From Axinella damicornis (taxonomy: Eukaryota > Porifera > Demospongiae > Axinellida > Axinellidae), in contig OZ007515.1 in assembly GCA_963931865.1 (NCBI GenBank), forward strand, positions 7,827,685 to 7,891,684: DNA of 64,000 bases, in the 5' to 3' direction. Position numbers and translations under genes: made by a program. The notes beneath the pieces are model-generated. The model was not told the DNA's origin, made no database searches, and worked only from the letters and a program-made list of their open reading frames with translations. Of the stretch, positions 11,279 through 61,736 are shown one piece after another (within the stretch, counting starts at the first letter, position 1; the number at the start of each line of letters is the position of its first letter).

Positions 11279-11287
11279 GCCTCCAGT
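11279..11287. repeat. 9-bp target site duplication, left copy
   Basis: GCCTCCAGT lies immediately before the left TIR. The identical nine bases stand at 17315-17323 immediately after the right TIR. Confidence 0.9.
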
Positions 11288-11391
11288 TAGTCTATCGAGC
11301 TAGACCAAATTTCTCTCGCTCCGGAAGTTGGGGGCGGGGCGTAGGGAAGAGCGAGAGAAGGTCTAGCAGATGTCATTAGTATGCATGAGGT
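11288..11391 (+). repeat. Left terminal inverted repeat, 104 bp
   Basis: Identical to the reverse complement of 17211-17314. It contains an internal inverted repeat: GCTAGACC...TTCTCTCGCT near the outer side is mirrored by AGCGAGAGAAGGTCTAGC towards the inner side. Each TIR can therefore fold on itself around a GC-rich loop. Confidence 0.93.
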
Positions 11392-11485
11392 GCTGACGTA
11401 GAACTACTTTGCATCTACTTATCCTGCTCATTAATTGGACCGCAGAAGCCACGTGCAACAAATTGATTGTAGTAGTGAAGATGAT

Positions 11486-14400
11486 ATGGCTGTCGTTTGC
11501 GCGCTGTGTAAAGCTGGCAATCTCCCCAGTCATCGCTATCGAATACGGGAGGGGACACACACAGCAGGTGGGCCGACGGAGTTGTTTCGCCAACTGAGAA
11601 CAGTAGTAGGAGAGAATTTGCCTGAAACGCTGTGTTCCAATGTGGTGTGTGCGCTTTGTCGAAGCAACATCCTGAAAGCCCTAAAACAGAAGGAGCGCTT
11701 TGAACAATCCAGGAGAGAGCTTGTTGAGAAGCTACGCGGAGTTCCTGCCTCCTCTGTACTCCCTTGCAACGCGCAACCACCCGCGCTGAAAGCAGTTAGT
11801 CCTCGTAGTAGCCAACCCTGGAAGCGACCTCGACCGTCTCCGTTGACAACAACTGGAGTTTCTCCTCTAGCCAAGAGGCCTCTTTCTGCTACGAACGCAT
11901 CCCAGCGTAAGTTGACGACACCAGTTGCTCGTCGTGAACTGTTCCCTGTTCCAACTGGTGGCCAGGCTTCACCCTCAAGGATCCCAATGCCACCCTCAAG
12001 GATCCCAATGCAACCCTCAAGGATCGCAATGCCACCCTCTAGGTCAACAACCTCTTGCTCCCCTACCACAAGCGTGGGTCATGTAACTCTGTCTCAGCAA
12101 CCCGCAGTCCAGCAAGAGGTAATTGTGGATACTACTTTGGTGTGTTAGGAGTTTGTCTGGTGTTACAGGGACTTGTATCCATGCAGCATATCCACACCTT
12201 GCCGTCCAGAATACCAGTGCGAAGTGGTGTAGTCAACGTGAGACTGTTAGCACAAGGCCCAGCTATCTGTGCTGGCGTTGTGATCCAACCTCTGCTGTCT
12301 ACAACCCAACAACAGTCGCTGAGGGTGGCACCACCACAACAAGCTGCTACAGGACCCCCGCCTGTTTCCATCCGGCAACAGCAGCAGGTTTGTGCAGTAT
12401 CCCCTTTTTCTGTGTGTCAAAAGTTAAAGTGTTACTGACCTTATAGAATATACTTGTACATTTCAGGCACTCCCTCACATAATTGCGAGAAGATCCGTAG
12501 ATACTCAGGCTATGGTGGAGGCAATTAGGTGCCCTGGACCTACACAAGACCTCATTGTGAGATGCCTTCTGGAACTACTCCACCAAGAGTGTGTGGCGCT
12601 CTGTCAGAAGAAGCAGATGTCCTCTGTTTTACGTGGGCTTCAGCCTCAAGATTTAGTATCATTCTCGTTCAGCCACATTATCGATGAGTGGGCTACCATT
12701 GCTCCTCTTTTTTTGAAGTTCTTGGCTACCGCTGCCAATGTGAATCCTTCCGATCCTGGTAGCAATGTTGCTGGCGTCTGTACAGCAGGTGCAGTCTTGC
12801 TAAGGCAAAGGAACGTGCACATGAGTGCACTACACCACATCGCTGGGCTTATTCTCTTCCATGGAAATGCTAGCAAGCAGGTATGGTGACAAATGTTGTG
12901 GATATTATTGTTCTATTGCATGAAGTGTCTTCTTTATATCCACCAGGCACATGTTCGCCTGAACCATCTGCAGTTGGCTGTTTCACCTGATGCAACACTA
13001 AACAAGGTTGACCAATTGGCAGCTGGTTTTGATCAAACAGTAGTAAAGTGGAAGGATGACATCAGTCGTTATCACTCAGGTAAGAATTAATTGGCTGAAG
13101 TATGAGTTGTTAATTGCTGTAAATCCCCAGCTGGCCAGCTGAACCATTGTAATGCAAGGCATTTTTTCATATATACACTGTAATAGGTGAGTTTGAGAAC
13201 TACCCTTCGTACCAGATCATTGGAGACAATGTTGACATACACCAACGCACCCCCCACCAATCCATGAAAAGGAAGGACAAAGACCACCACTGGTTCCACA
13301 TGTACGCTGTCCGAGACCGTGTCACAGGAAAGGAACTTCCAAATGATGTTCCCATTGCCGATGTGACCAAAATACCCCTACAAACCTTCCTGCCATCAGT
13401 GGAAGAGTGCAATCACATTCGAGTTGAGTTTGGAGTTTTGATCGCTCGAGTTGTCGTTGAGAAAATGGAGTACTTCCGTTCCCTGAAGCCATTTGTTCCC
13501 GATCACATGAAGCATAAGTACTCGGATGCAATGAGGCTAAAATCTGAAATGGTGAGTACTGCATGTTATTACCATTCATTTTAGAGGTGTGTCATCCTAA
13601 GTTACAAACCTTTAACAAACCATTGCTTTGTTACTTCAGGTGCCATTGGGCGTGCTTACCAAATCGGAGCAAGTTGGGGACGACATGATAGACATCATGA
13701 CCCATATCCACAAATATGTTCCCAAAAAAGCCAACGGCACGTTTAGTCCCATTTTCTTTGGTGGTGACCAGCTAACAAGGGAGAGAGCTGGTGGTGCACT
13801 GGATGCTCGGCTACAGGCGTCTGACCCCCTCAGACGGCTTGAAGGTGTCATACCAAAGGTGGAAGATTGGCATGCTCTAGTGTGCTTCTACCAGGTAATT
13901 GATATTGAGCAGCTCATATATGGTAAATCTTTGAAGTTAGCATAATTACAGTCAATTCCCACCCCCTCCTCTACATCATTATCACCTTTTGTCCCCTTTG
14001 TAGGTCATATGGAATCACTTGTACAAAACCACCTCATTCAGCGACAAGGGTACACTGAAACAGCTGGCCAACCTAATTGGCCGAACTAACGTTCCACAAG
14101 TTGTGAAAAAGGACTTCGCTGCTGCGAAAGATTTCTTCAGTGTCGTTCTTGATGCCCATATAGTCACTGCAGCGATGCACTTCTTTGGGATGAAGGATGT
14201 GAATGACACACCAACAGAGAATACTTTTCCAGGCAACCTCAATGCTGCTACGGATGAAGAGAAGAAGAAGTACCTATCTGTGTGCACAAGAGCGTTCATC
14301 TCCAAATTTGCTCTTCATCATGTTCAAAGCCTTGATGAGGATAGCACGACGGGTACTGATGGTGTTTACGACTATGCCTGTTCAGTCATAGGATTTGGCC

Positions 14401-15035
14401 TGCTAGCACACAATTTTGGTGATGCCACTCATGAAGGTGATGGGGAGAGATTGATTCGCTGCTGGAAGTTCTTCATGCTCCACTTCAAAGCAGATGGACG
14501 TACCAAGTACGCTGTTGAAGCCTTCAATCTTCTTGCCCAAGTTAAGGCATCCCTCACCCCACAAATGGCCCACAGGTTGGTATGGAACCGCACGTGTAAT
14601 CCCAAAGGAGGTGATGGAAAGAACATACAACTGGATTTACACAATGAACACCTAAATCGTGTGTTCAAAGATGATATAAACACGTTCCGTGCGAATATAT
14701 CAGGGGTGAGTGTTTCCAGAAGCTCACAAGCTATTGGTCCAATGATGGACATACTGAAGACAGTTGATTCCATGGTGCATGTGAAAACCCCAAGTGGACG
14801 GCACATTGGACCAAATATAGACCTAGACTTCGAGTCAATCCTAAAAGTACTTTTGGACGAAAACGTTTTTGTGACCAAGAAGGGCCGTAAGCACAAGCAC
14901 TTCTCACACTTCAAATCGGACCCATTTCTGTCATTGAAGAAGAAACCGAAACCTTACGCTAAATTTCACAAGTGGCTAGTCAAACGGAGGAAGGCAGCGA
15001 GTATTCAACACCAGATAGCAACCCGAGTGTTTTAA
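11486..15035 (+). CDS. DUF6589-type protein with N-terminal ZAD-like zinc-binding module; candidate transposase
   Basis: Seven exons: 11486-12118, 12169-12387, 12467-12880, 12947-13079, 13187-13551, 13640-13894 and 14004-15035. All have GT-AG borders and compatible phases, giving 1016 residues. The ATG at 11486 is the first Met in the frame. Residues 1-70 hold CALC ... LCSNVVCALC, a Cys pattern like ZAD/C2C2 modules. Residues about 163-187 are a seven-residue repeat (PSRIPMP). Exon 3 has the family's 'VCTAGAVLLRQRN..M' to 'GLILFHGNASKQ' block. Later come GDNVD (480-483), DHHWFHMYAVRDRV (499-512), FFGGDQLTRERAGGA (627-641) and VEDWHA (662-667), features I recognise from DUF6589. A conserved D...D...E set suggests an RNase-H-like nuclease, but this is inference. 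Its position inside identical TIRs makes it the candidate transposase. A polyadenylation signal follows at 15107. Confidence 0.85.
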
Positions 15036-15106
15036 CTTTGTTGGATTGTTTGTCAATGTATATTTAATGATAATTAGGCAAGTTGGGTATAATATTGTTA
15101 GGCAAC

Positions 15107-15112
15107 AATAAA
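15107..15112 (+). promoter_or_regulatory. Polyadenylation signal of the DUF6589-type gene
   Basis: AATAAA lies 72 bases after the stop codon at 15035 and before the convergent stop of the helicase gene. Confidence 0.7.
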
Positions 15113-15160
15113 TTTGTCACTGACAGGAAGTGATGTTACAAAAAGGAAATCAGAAATTAA

Positions 15161-17113
15161 TTAACAGTAACCAAAAATATCTTCAATAATCCTCATGATT
15201 TCACCAGCCCAGTTCCATACTAGACATTTTTCTTCAACATCAAATGAATCGGAGATGAACTCACAATTATCAACAACAGAATCTACCATTTCTGTAGGAA
15301 GGCCACAAACGATATCATCTCCCACATATGTGGACATCCCTTCACATAATTCGTGAGTTGAGTGCAGCACTATATCCCTAAATTCCATCAGGCGTGTTCG
15401 TAGTAGACGCCTTTCAGCGGGAGTGACAGTACGCACAAATTCCTCCCCATCCTCATCATCATTGTCATCATCACTTGCACAATTCAGTTTCACTTGTTGA
15501 ACACGTGCTTGAACTGGACATTCCACTGAGCATGTACATTCTCTGGTACAGACATCACAACAGTTATGTTTAATATTTCCAATTGTAGAGGTGTCAATAC
15601 CACCTATGAAGTTGTGTAGCAGCATTCTTCTGCGACACTTGTCTTCTGACTTGCAGTACTCCTTCATATTGTTGCTCACATGACCAATCAGACAGCCGGG
15701 GTACAAGTACAGGATGACATTGCTTTCTAGTCCATCACGTCCTGCCCTCCCACACTCCTGAAAGTAATCATCCATATCAGCAGGTGGTCCGAAGTGGATA
15801 ACTGTACGGATATTCGGCACATCTACGCCCATACCAAAAGCAGTAGTGGAAAACAGAACCCGACAGTTACCGTGCGGATTCAGCATCGACTGCATTATCT
15901 GCTGCTTTTCGTCATCTCCAGCTCGTGAATGATACATAGCAAACAGACGGTTAGCTATGGACGGCGGGCTTCCACAAGGCTCATAGCTCTCTTTTTTCAA
16001 CTCGGTGAGGAACATTTTGTACAGTGATGCACACATATTGATCGAGCGGCAAAATACAATCACCCTAGGGAGGGAACTTCGTTTCCTCTTGAGGTCTGAA
16101 ACTAGCCATTTGAAAGCGACATGCACGTCGCGGTTGACTCTCTCTACTGAGTAGCGAAGATTTGGTCGATTTGATGGTTTGGTGATCAACTGCACAGGGG
16201 TCATCTGCAGCGCATGAATGATGCGATCCTTGACATAATGAGTTGCCGTGGCTGTCAGTGCCACAATAGGTGTGTTGGACGGAAGCAATGACCGTAGCTG
16301 TGATATCTGGCTGTACCATGCTCGAAATTCATCTCCCATTCCCCTAAGGAAGTTAAAAATGTGTACATCAATATCAACACATGCAATGGTATGTGGTGTA
16401 ACATGCAGTATACACTGTAGGCTGCCAGTGAGAGATTTAAGCCTATACAGAAGGGGAAGGCAATTTCAATTCCCCATGTATAGCCTCGTACCATCGAACA
16501 TGTAACTATACTTCAAGCCAAGGCAACTTATCATAACAATGTGAGTTTCAAATGATAGTGTGCATGATACTTACAGCACTCACCATTTCACAATACAGTG
16601 AGCCTCATCAATTGCCAAGGCCACCACTCGTCCTGAGAACCTATCGTTAACGAACAGTGAGCGCCATGTTTTGTTGCCAATGAAGGCTTCTGGGCTGCCA
16701 AATATATGTGTAACCCGCCCTTCAACCACGTCTGCAATGCAATCTCTCGACGTTTCCCCCGAAATTCGTACCGCCTTCACGCCCTTGGCGACAAGCTTGG
16801 AGACTTGGTCTTCCATAAGTGAAATCAGAGGCGACACCACTACTACCACCGAGGGTTGGGACGTCTGCGAAGATGTACAGGAACGGAGTAGGCTGTCCGC
16901 GCAGAACGGCAATAACTGGTACACCAGAGACTTGCCAAATCCCGTAGGGACGCTCATCAACACGTCGTCTCCATTAAGCAGGCTCTGAACGGCTGACAGC
17001 TGCTCGGACTTTATACTTTCGTAGCCCATGCAACGCATTCCTTCCTCCACAGCACGGGTAACAAGCGATGGGTCAGTGGATAGTTCAGTTACCCAAGTCT
17101 TGTACAACGCCAT
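15161..17113 (-). CDS. RecQ-family ATP-dependent DNA helicase carried by the transposon
   Basis: Two exons, 16584-17113 and 15161-16343, with a splice inside a Trp codon, give 570 residues. The start is the first ATG (17113), giving MALYKTWVTELS. Helicase motifs are intact. Motif 0/I region: GYESIKSEQ (30-38) and PTGFGKS (56-62). Motif II: DEAH (169-172). Motif III: ALTATAT (205-211). Motif IV: VIVFCRS. Motif V: FSTTAFGMGVDVP (341-353). Motif VI: QECGRAGRDG (372-381). A RecQ-type zinc-binding Cys set follows (C407, C413, and CCDVC at 438-442). The C-terminus is an acidic run and an unassigned tail without a recognisable HRDC domain. RecQ enzymes unwind DNA 3'-5'. Here it may assist excision or repair of the element; that role is inferred from its place inside the TIRs. 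Confidence 0.92.
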
Positions 17114-17210
17114 TGCAAAACTCACAACTGTTCACAACTACTTAGCGAACGCATAATTTGCACGTGTTACTACTGGCTGAAAATCGATCAGTAGAATCTG
17201 ATTGGTCGGT

Positions 17211-17314
17211 ACCTCATGCATACTAATGACATCTGCTAGACCTTCTCTCGCTCTTCCCTACGCCCCGCCCCCAACTTCCGGAGCGAGAGAAATTTGGTCT
17301 AGCTCGATAGACTA
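17211..17314 (-). repeat. Right terminal inverted repeat, 104 bp
   Basis: Exact inverted copy of 11288-11391, about 100 bases upstream of the helicase ATG. The TIR or adjoining DNA probably carries that gene's promoter. Confidence 0.93.
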
Positions 17315-17323
17315 GCCTCCAGT
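17315..17323. repeat. 9-bp target site duplication, right copy
   Basis: GCCTCCAGT, identical to 11279-11287, directly abuts the right TIR. Confidence 0.9.
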
Positions 17324-25016: not shown

Positions 25017-25596
25017 TAGCCTCGTTCCCAGGCCCACCCCCTTTTTTTCTGTTCTTCGGTTTCCGTTGACAATAATACATGGATGCTGAAGGGCGGCGTA
25101 AAAAACGCGGAAGGCCTGGTACGATTCGTCAGGTGGACGCAAGGGTGGACGTAGGGGGGGCGGGGCCCGTAGTCGTTTCAGCAGGTCCTGAAGGCTGTTC
25201 GTCATCCAGTCGGCTCGGTTCGAACGCTCCGCGGCTAGTCGGGACTCGCAGACGATCTACACAACTTCTTGGGCGCTTTTAAAACTTATTTGCGGTTGGG
25301 CCAAACCGCAAATAAGTTTTAAAAGCGCCCAAGAAGTTGTGTAGATCGTCTGCGAGTCCCGACTAGCCGCGGAGCGTTCGAACCGAGCCGACTGGATGAC
25401 GAACAGCCTTCAGGACCTGCTGAAACGACTACGGGCCCCGCCCCCCCTACGTCCACCCTTGCGTCCACCTGACGTCACTCATGTGATGAATCGTACCAGG
25501 CCTTCCGCGTTTTTCGCCGCCCTTCAGCATCCGTGTATTATTGTCAACGGAAACCGAAGAACAGAAAAAAACGGGGTAGGCCTGGGAACGAGGCTA
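25017..25596. mobile_element. 580-bp near-perfect hairpin (foldback) element with 9-bp target duplication
   Basis: Starts TAGCCTCGTTCCCAGGCC and ends GGCCTGGGAACGAGGCTA. The two arms are inverted copies over roughly 270 bases, meeting at CTTATTTGCGGTTGGGCC near 25290-25310. GCTTCACAG is repeated exactly at 25008-25016 and 25597-25605. The right arm carries a small extra segment near 25470-25500 that the left arm lacks. Frames inside are shadows of the repeat. Confidence 0.88.
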
Positions 25597-26458: not shown

Positions 26459-26949
26459 TAGCCTCGTTCCCAGGCCTTCCGCACCTCCAGTTTTTGATCG
26501 CTTGCAGTATGCGAAAACGGAGGGGGAAGTACACCGAGCGTATGAAGCATACCCAGGCAACAAGCCATGACTCCAAAGGGCTGCCGAGTGACAAACGTGA
26601 AAATGCCCAGCTATGACGCAATCTTCTCGTGGAGCGAAAAGACGGCACTATTTGGAGTTTCACCCCTTGTATCACAGCTATATATATCCTCAGCGGTTTT
26701 GCTTCGAACCTGGATATATTTTACAGGTAGGACCTACCTCTTCTCTGAAAGTTGTTTCAGTTTTCTAGCTTCTTTGTAGCTGTGGATGGGAATGTACAAT
26801 GTAAATAAGCCATTGCGTCTAGAATCCGTGACGTCAGCTGTGCCGCGTATCACATGAGAAGATTCCCCAGGCCTTCGGATTCCCCCTCCGTTTTTGCATA
26901 CTGAAAGCGATCAAAAACTGGAGGTGCGGAAGGCCTGGGAACGAGGCTA
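26459..26949. mobile_element. 491-bp TAGCCT element with perfect 9-bp target duplication
   Basis: Ends TAGCCTCGTTCCCAGGCC and GGCCTGGGAACGAGGCTA. CACGTACTT flanks it exactly on both sides (26450-26458 and 26950-26958). Internal sequence is shared with the elements at 7223-7727 and 54922-55370. No intact coding frame. Confidence 0.88.
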
Positions 26950-47086: not shown

Positions 47087-47507
47087 TAGTCTCGCGGGCC
47101 AGACTTGACATTCTACCGAGAGGGGAAGTAATGTCTGGGAACCTGCCTATTCCATTTTGGTTCACGGAATTCGAAATCATTGCTTGTCACGTAAACGGAA
47201 TGCTTACTTGCTTTATGCTGTCATGTTCAAAATACTAGCAAAGTTCTTCACAGCTTCCTCCCGCTCTTTTCGAAGGCTTGAATAGCCTAGTCTCAAACAA
47301 GCAGCGTCGATTGCCCAATCAACATCCATGTTCAACGTTCTTCGCACAGCTCGCACGCTGTGGAATGTAATCCTACATTACGTCACAAGTTAAATTGAAA
47401 TAGAACAATGCGCCAGCATTCCAGCGCACCAGAACCAAAATGGAATAGGCGGATTACCAGACGCATTTTTCCCCCCTCGTGCGAAAAATCGTCTGGGAAC
47501 AAGACTA
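47087..47507. mobile_element. 421-bp TAGTCT-ended deletion derivative with perfect 9-bp target duplication and RecQ relic
   Basis: Left TAGTCTCGCGGGCCAGAC and right GTCTGGGAACAAGACTA are inverted, with a shared inner arm CCTATTCCATTTTGGTTC. AGTGGCTGT flanks it exactly at 47078-47086 and 47508-47516. Confidence 0.88.
47213..47329 (-). pseudogene. RecQ helicase N-terminal relic on the minus strand
   Basis: MDVDWAIDAACLRLGYSSLR then KEREEAVKNFASI and a stop soon after. It corresponds to the segment just before motif I of RecQ ('...GY.S.K.EQ..AV..'). It ends before the Walker motif, showing an internal deletion. Confidence 0.65.
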
Positions 47508-58867: not shown

Positions 58868-59225
58868 TGAGGGGGGGGGGGGGGGGGGGGGGGAGGGAAG
58901 GGAAGGAGGGAGGCAAGGGGGAGGAGGGAAGGAAGAGGGAGGGAAGAAGGAGGGAAGAGGGAGGGAAGAGGGAGGGAAGAGGGAGGGAAGAGAGGAGAGG
59001 GGAAGGGGAAGGGGAGGGAGAGGGAGGAGGAGGGGGGGGGGAGGAAGGGGGAGGGAGGGGAGGGGAAGAGGGGAGGGGAAGAGGGGAGGGGAAGAGGGGA
59101 GGGGGTTGGGAAGAGGCAGAAGATGGGAGAAGAGAGAGGAGAAAGGAGGGGGGAGAGGAGGGAGGAGAGAGGATGGGAGGGGAGAGGGGAAGAAGAAATG
59201 GGAGGAGAGGGAGGATAGGATATGG
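58868..59225 (+). repeat. Polypurine tract of about 360 bases
   Basis: Almost only G and A on the plus strand, with a 23-base G run at the left and repeated GAGGGAAGAGGGAGG units. It gives spurious long frames on both strands. Confidence 0.9.
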
Positions 59226-59904
59226 GGAGGTAAACACTGAGACCATGTTGACTACTGGTACATGTGTGCGTGCACAAAACAGACAAACATAGGAAGTCAT
59301 AATTATGATGTATTACAACCCGCGTGAAAGTCTTATTTCTAACTTGACCACACCCTGTTTCTAACATTACTGCCACAACTTACGGTATCTTATTCTACAT
59401 GCTGACATCGCTGTATTAAAAATCCGTGGCCTGCAAATAACTCCCTATTCTGTGGTCTTCAGGGCTTGCAAAGTTACAGCAGCTACATGTGGATTGAACA
59501 GTGAGCATAGCTGACATCTTTACACCTCCACTTGATCTACAGTTAAACTCACACCACACTCGCATGCACATGGGGCCAGGACACACATACGCATGTAGTG
59601 GGCATGAGTCACGTGCACGATGCAGAAATGCATTCAACTGCATTGAATGTACCAACAGATTTGGCTTCTACTGCCCATTAAACCCAACCATAAAATTTGA
59701 AAAGGGTTTTAAATCAGTAAATTAAATTCACTATGTGACATGACGTCACCCTAAATACCTGTCCTTGGTCTCTTTATCCCTTCTCTTGTTCACCTCTGAC
59801 CACCAAGCCGGGGGCGGGGGAGACTGATCCAGTTGGAAGGACTGACAAAAAGGGGTAGATTGGTGAATGGGAAGACATTATGGGCATGGATATAGTCCCA
59901 AGGT

Positions 59905-59920
59905 GTGTGTATGTGTGTGT

Positions 59921-59972
<52 letters not shown>

Positions 59973-59990
59973 GTGTGTGTGTGTGTGTGT
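59905..59990 (+). repeat. GT microsatellite
   Basis: (GT)n with few interruptions. Confidence 0.95.
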
Positions 59991-60489
59991 AGAGGGTGAA
60001 TAATCTGCTATTATTTTGACTGTAGTATGAGGGTGTGTATAATTATGTGAAGGTGTATGAAGTCTGAAGGTGTATATGTCAAAAGGTGTATATGTGAATG
60101 TCTGTGCGGTGAGAGGGTAGGTATATATTATGTGAGTGTGTTCAATGTGACATGTGCATGTGAGGGTGAACATGAAGGGTGAATGTAAGGGTATCTCACT
60201 AAGTCAGAGTGAGCATGTACATCTGACGAAGGTGTAGTGTGAGGATCGATGCACAGTGTGAGGGTGTGCACCTTGTGATCGTCAATCTGCAACAAGATCT
60301 GCTGATTATAAGAGAACCTCAAGATCTTGTATGATACTCTCCAGATATCTTGCTAGAGTTGGTCTCTATGGTGATCACTGCCTGGGTCTCACTGACAACT
60401 GAGGAGTCTCTGTCCAAATGAAGGGAGAGGGAATGTAGGTGAAAAAAAGAGGTCATTTACACTGCGGATCGAGAGCTGAGAGGTGAATT

Positions 60490-60835
60490 AGGGATGAGGG
60501 GTGAGAGATGAGAGGGAGGGGGTGGGGTGTGAGGGAAGGTAAAGATGAGGGGTGAGAGATGAAGGGGTATGTGGGGTGCGAGGGAAGGTAAAGAAGAGGG
60601 GTGAGAGATGAGGGGGTGGGGTGTGAGGGAAGGTAAAGATGAGGGGTGAGAGATGAGGGAGTGGGGTGCAAGGGAAGGTAAAGATGAGGGGTGAGAGATG
60701 AGGGGGTGGGGTGCGAGGGAAGGTAAAGATGAGGGGTGAGAGATGAGGGGGTGGGGTGTGAGGGAAGGTAAAGATGAGGGGAGAGAGATGAGGGGGTGGG
60801 GTGCGAGGGAAGGTAAAGATGAGGGGAGAGGGAAT
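60490..60835 (+). repeat. 45-bp minisatellite
   Basis: Unit AGGTAAAGATGAGGGGTGAG then AGATGAGGGGGTGGGGTGCG and AGGGA, about seven to eight copies. Confidence 0.9.
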
Positions 60836-61074
60836 GTACTGTAGGCAGGTAGAGAGGCCATTTACACTGTGGAGAGATGAGAGCTACTGTAGAAAGGTGA
60901 GGGGTGAGGAGGTGAGGGAGTTGGGAGTGAGAGCAGAGGGAATGATTGTAGGTGGCGAGGGAGTGGGGGAGGTGAGGGGATGAGGGGGAGAGGGAATGCA
61001 GGCATGAAGAGAGGCTGTTTACACCGTGGAGATGAGAGGTAAAGGATCAAGGGTAAGTGGTGGGGAGTGGGTGA

Positions 61075-61365
61075 GAGGACGAGGGATGAGGGGTGAGTGG
61101 ATGAGGGATGAGGGGACGAGGGGTGAGGGAATGAGGGATGAAGGGACGAGGGGTGAGGGGACGAGGGATGAGGAGTGAGTGGATGAGGGATGAGGGGATG
61201 AGGAGTGAGGGGATGAGGGGACGAGGGGTGAGTGGATGAGGGGTGAGGGGATGAGGGGTGAGTGAGTGAATGAGGGATGAGGGGTGAGGGGACGAGGGAT
61301 GAGGGGTGAGTGGATGAGGGATGAGGGGACGAGGGATGAGGAGTGAGGGGACGAGGGGTGAGGGG
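61075..61365 (+). repeat. GATGAGGGGACGAGGGATGA-type minisatellite
   Basis: Irregular 10-15-base units of GAGGGATGAGGGGTGAGTG and GAGGGGACGAGG. Confidence 0.9.
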
Positions 61366-61736
61366 AGGAAAGGCAGGGAGGGAGGGAGGGAGGGATACAT
61401 AATGTTTAAATATTACTTGTTTATGTCATCGTTTAGCTGGATACACATGTTTGAGCTGAAATTTGCCATCATAGAGCAGAAGTGAGCGTCCTCACCAGGC
61501 ATTAGGACCCCTCGCCTTGGTATCACAATATTGACTCCAGTATTTATATACTCTGAAGAATCAGACCCAGGCATATCGAGTCACCCCTTCTTTGGATGGA
61601 TGACAAACACCAGCGCTCCTTGTCTGAAGACCATACATACATCTATCAGGTGGTAGCGACATTAGTTCAGTCTTGAGATAGGGTCACAGAATACAGTAGG
61701 TAGTAACAGACTTGAACAATACCAAGAGTTCATAAC

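Follow-up and report, generated by a model that had tools for sequence, protein, structure and literature searches.

What kind of transposon carries a protein with DUF6589, a domain of unknown function, beside a RecQ-type helicase? The question is raised by a stretch of 64,000 nucleotides from the sponge Axinella damicornis (assembly GCA_963931865.1, contig OZ007515.1, positions 7,827,685 to 7,891,684 of the forward strand; the whole stretch is called the window below). It contains a 6,027-bp DNA transposon at positions 11288–17314, bounded by identical inverted ends and a 9-bp target-site duplication (TSD). Judged from its sequence, the transposon most probably represents a new AcademH family, with DUF6589 as the predicted DDE transposase and the RecQ-type helicase in an assisting role; this placement was made against published descriptions of the lineage.

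Boundaries and genes of the element

The two terminal inverted repeats (TIRs) match throughout (104 of 104 bases), and mismatches begin at base 105. Within each end, an inner inverted repeat can form a hairpin. The DNA fold of the left TIR has a z-score of -4.96, and none of 200 shuffled sequences was as stable. The hairpin may be a recognition feature, or merely a relic of nested repeats. Two genes are located between the TIRs, with their stop codons facing each other across 125 bp (Table 1). The exon limits of both genes are predictions from the sequence.

DUF6589 occupies residues 532–940 of the 1,016-residue protein (E-value 1.5e-51) and was the only name that Pfam assigned to it. In the 570-residue protein, an exon-by-exon scan recovered the Pfam domains DEAD and Helicase_C, and the helicase motifs are intact (Walker A GFGKS, DEAH and motif VI QECGRAGRDG). 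Of the proteins with solved structures, the Bloom syndrome protein matches it best (E-value 8.7e-41), and it shares the helicase core with RecQ helicases such as BLM, WRN, RECQ1 and bacterial RecQ. Unlike these, it showed no match to RQC or HRDC in the exon-wise Pfam scan, in which the RecQ zinc-binding match was below the curated cut-off. The first-pass annotation had described a young and complete transposon with identical 104-bp TIRs, a perfect 9-bp duplication and two intact, convergent split genes. This description stands: every TIR base agrees, GCCTCCAGT is found on both sides, and the seven-exon and two-exon models both have open frames.

Table 1. Features of the transposon, in window coordinates
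Feature	Position	Strand	Remarks
Left TSD copy, 9 bp	11279–11287	.	GCCTCCAGT; identical to 17315–17323
Left TIR, 104 bp	11288–11391	+	Begins TAGTCTATCG; contains hairpin-forming inverted repeat; 104/104 against reverse complement of 17211–17314
Predicted transposase gene (DUF6589), 7 exons, 1,016 residues	11486–15035	+	Six GT-AG introns, single open frame
Transposase exons	11486–12118, 12169–12387, 12467–12880, 12947–13079, 13187–13551, 13640–13894, 14004–15035	+	
RecQ-type helicase gene, 2 exons (17113–16584, 16343–15161), 570 residues	15161–17113	-	GT-AG intron, no internal stop
Right TIR, 104 bp	17211–17314	-	104/104 match to left TIR
Right TSD copy, 9 bp	17315–17323	.	GCCTCCAGT; identical to 11279–11287

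Related ends and gene pairs in the genome

The 226-Mb assembly, in which the window lies on contig C11, was searched for related sequences. The 19-bp terminus has 775 matches with at most two mismatches, including the two of the window, and the reversed control has none. For the entire TIR, 12 of 40 scored matches (from 421 candidates) are identical across 104 bp, again with the two of the window included. TSDs were surveyed at 36 loci (L001–L017 and L026–L044), where every left end was assigned the right end closest to it and loci lacking a partner end were excluded; the sample was not random, as several loci were chosen because the list of termini showed both ends. The survey yielded 17 distinct shorter elements of 61 to 1,662 bp. 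A 9-bp TSD is exact in 12 of these and has at most one mismatch in 15, while an exact 10-bp TSD is found in none; exact 9-bp duplications are present even around the shortest, 61-bp copies. The near-identical ends at many loci suggest that the transposon was recently mobile.

The window contains the only complete copy found by DNA queries. Queries with the last exon of the transposase gene and with the long exon of the helicase gene each found two places, one of them the window, and exon 3 found the window alone. Exon 1 has 29 matches, including that of the window. At 18 other exon-1 loci examined, similarity to the element is absent from about 650 to 5,640 bp of the segment and, therefore, these relatives look internally deleted or partial.

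Two short elements elsewhere in the window (25017–25596 and 26459–26949) have TAGCCTCGTTCCCAGGCC ends and long inverted repeats, each with an exact 9-bp duplication (GCTTCACAG and CACGTACTT), and are thus likely to be non-autonomous relatives; among 324 pairs of TAG(T/C)CT ends, the expected number of exact 9-bp matches is 0.0012. A weaker candidate at 47087–47507 has TAGTCT ends of poor similarity and an exact 9-bp duplication, AGTGGCTGT.

The pairing of DUF6589 with a helicase recurs in the genome. Profile searches gave at least 100 matches for DUF6589 (102 of 121 candidates scored) and at least 125 for Helicase_C (150 of 182 candidates scored). After merging, 27 of 66 DUF6589 clusters, near-identical copies included, have a convergent Helicase_C match on the opposite strand 0.44–1.9 kb downstream, compared to about 0.07 expected by chance. 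Among the matches scored, no cluster has a helicase in any other arrangement within 4 kb. Of the 20 best DUF6589 loci, 17 are matched by the helicase of the window, its own locus counted.

Two diverged families also contain the pair within TIRs. The copy of the second family on contig C13 is a 5,304-bp element with ATCTTAAAT duplicated as a 9-bp TSD, and the TIRs of this family, read from a copy on contig C4, are about 71 bp long. The third family, on contig C8, is represented by a 5,691-bp element with identical 70-bp TIRs and a 9-bp TSD, GAGTGTGGG. The element ends begin with TAG in all three families. Further copies with such ends and 9-bp duplications, for which the first-pass annotation had proposed a search, are present in this genome, as are other DUF6589–RecQ neighbours inside TIRs.

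Transposase and helicase appear to diverge together. After five of 16 loci were dropped as near-identical copies, the pairwise distances of the two proteins correlate across the remaining 11 families (Mantel r 0.72, p 0.0001). In a helicase tree of 25 rows, which was built without host RECQ proteins and drew long-branch warnings, nine helicases of this genome separate with full support from eight rows of RecQ proteins, of which five are named as bacterial. The eight further rows, which include coral, sponge and clam proteins, fall on the same side as the helicases of this genome.

Five DUF6589 matches (C5:17342296, C5:17334949, C1:9904614, C9:7638228 and C11:1943572) lie in open frames of 1,125 to 2,106 residues, with no Helicase_C match within 4 kb. 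They are possibly another DUF6589 lineage or domesticated genes.

Candidate catalytic residues and proposed mechanism

In a 24-row alignment of DUF6589 proteins, Asp480 and Asp631 are invariant in all 21 rows that reach them, and Glu888 is invariant in all 24 rows. In the protein of the window, the two aspartates are about 150 residues apart, and Asp631 and Glu888 are about 256 residues apart. This pattern suggests a DDE transposase in which an insertion separates the second aspartate from the glutamate, and the earlier assignment of DUF6589 as the transposase is accordingly retained as probable. The N-terminal region of the predicted transposase contains a CxxC...CxxC motif. Pfam searches of DUF6589 relatives at E-values up to 10 returned, besides DUF6589, zinc-finger and scattered weak matches, including weak, sub-threshold zf-AD matches in some relatives. 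The cysteine motif and the zf-AD matches together suggest a DNA-binding finger.

Several observations qualify this assignment. Asp483, Glu598 and Asp884 are likewise invariant, so that the choice of Asp480, Asp631 and Glu888 as the triad is a judgement. Two AlphaFold models are poor in the putative catalytic core (mean predicted local distance difference test scores of 56.2 and 59.5), and fold searches with these low-confidence models gave no clear transposase.

In the proposed mechanism, the DUF6589 protein would bind and pair the TIRs, perhaps via its N-terminal cysteine motif, cut with Asp480, Asp631 and Glu888, and insert the element with a 9-bp stagger that would result in the 9-bp TSD. 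At excision, strand transfer or gap repair, the helicase would open or clear the DNA, helping with strand separation or with processing of the gap. The shorter relatives, as deletion derivatives, would be mobilised in trans.

Probable placement in the Academ superfamily

TIRs are a feature of the Academ superfamily, in which AcademH is said to have been set out as a lineage by Kojima in 2020 (Mob DNA 11:15). The nuclease of AcademX, a lineage of the same superfamily, is of the XPG type. The element shares with AcademH a helicase gene beside the transposase (570 residues, RecQ type), a TSD of fitting length, and TIRs (104 bp here and about 70 bp in the other two families). TSDs are given as 9 or 10 bp for AcademH and 3 or 4 bp for AcademX, a difference that is tied to the helicase versus the nuclease (PMC10045372). 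The 9-bp TSD and the helicase of the element thus differ from AcademX. The entry 'RecQ Helicase in Academ' is listed in PMC3627910 with a reference to Kapitonov et al., so that the association had been noted by 2013. The elements of the three families are 5.3–6.0 kb in size, near the mean of 5,565 bp for bivalve Academ elements (PMC10294476).

The first-pass annotation knew of no described superfamily with this gene pair and suggested a new one. Since a helicase together with a 9 or 10-bp TSD has been published for AcademH, and RecQ for Academ, a named superfamily very probably already contains the pair. The earlier interpretation therefore holds for a young, complete element with DUF6589 as the probable transposase and a RecQ partner, which recurs in 27 of 66 clusters and whose divergence tracks that of the transposase, and is not supported for the new superfamily.

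Further observations count against the overall reading as an AcademH family with an assisting helicase. Two of the 17 paired-end relatives lack a 9-bp TSD with the ends as paired, and the C4 copy of the second family shows no TSD. The sole other long copy of the element (contig C10, 97.4% identical across 3.7 kb) is missing its 5' portion, and a stop interrupts its helicase. The helicase tree is limited in the manner described above. Among the matches scored, 39 of the 66 DUF6589 clusters are without a helicase match within 4 kb; many of these are short matches, and some may come from other lineages.

These unpaired clusters would be explained if the helicase were a passenger, or a captured host gene, without a role in transposition, which would be compatible with membership in AcademH; moreover, the requirement for the helicase is itself a prediction. 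The constant orientation of the pair in 27 clusters, the correlated divergence of the two proteins and the intact motifs of the window copy make such a passenger improbable.

It is similarly unlikely that DUF6589–RecQ transposons form a separate superfamily outside Academ. In its favour, the name DUF6589 was not found in the literature searched, and a broader search by accession returned only one unrelated optics paper. In addition, for each of the 11 XPG_I matches in the genome, the closest DUF6589 cluster on its contig is more than 230 kb away. The helicase and TSD length, the early mention of RecQ in Academ and the similar element size cited above all point to Academ instead. Just as unlikely is a variant in which a dedicated, co-evolving helicase of such a superfamily sets the long duplication by opening nine base pairs of the target. 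Because the name DUF6589 is not used in the literature searched, its link to Academ is not stated there; AcademH or Academ is mentioned in the available passages of PMC10799480, PMC8290104 and PMC12210899, which give no details relevant to DUF6589. The identity of DUF6589 as an Academ transposase would thus be a matter of missing annotation and not of a new superfamily.

A Kolobok-type element is very improbable. KolobokH and Kolobok-1_CCri also have a RecQ helicase as an accessory protein, and in one Kolobok of a red alga the RecQ gene lies on the complementary strand (PMC9587614). However, the same source gives for Kolobok a 4-bp TTAA TSD (3 to 5 bp in KolobokP), 5'-RR termini and a C/DxxH signature, and none of the three was found here. 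The TSDs are 9 bp long and varied in sequence, and the ends start with TA. A cysteine or aspartate three residues before the conserved histidine is present in none of the 22 rows with a letter at that position, as examined at the only histidine conserved in at least 90% of rows between Asp631 and Glu888. Membership in Kolobok is contradicted by the TSD length and fails on the ends and the motif. Finally, an assembly artefact as the source of the identical TIRs and the duplication, which the first-pass annotation had considered, has a negligible likelihood given hundreds of termini across many contigs and exact 9-bp TSDs of differing sequence.

On contig C5 (3544463–3591547), XPG_I and Helicase_C matches were observed in long frames, where they form two pairs, about 2.5 kb apart; no DUF6589 match falls within 6 Mb of them on that contig, and they are perhaps another transposon type. 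Away from the transposon, the window contains a G-rich tandem-repeat tract (58869–61366) with a strong GC skew of up to 0.55.

On this evidence DUF6589, hitherto without a known function, is a probable transposase for which candidate catalytic residues can be named. 'Uncharacterized proteins' with DUF6589 in echinoderms, lancelet and other animals could then be regarded as likely products of transposon genes or of genes descended from them. Moreover, since the RecQ partner is found repeatedly in a single orientation and its divergence follows that of the transposase, and since both genes are open in this copy, the role of a helicase in cut-and-paste transposition becomes testable.

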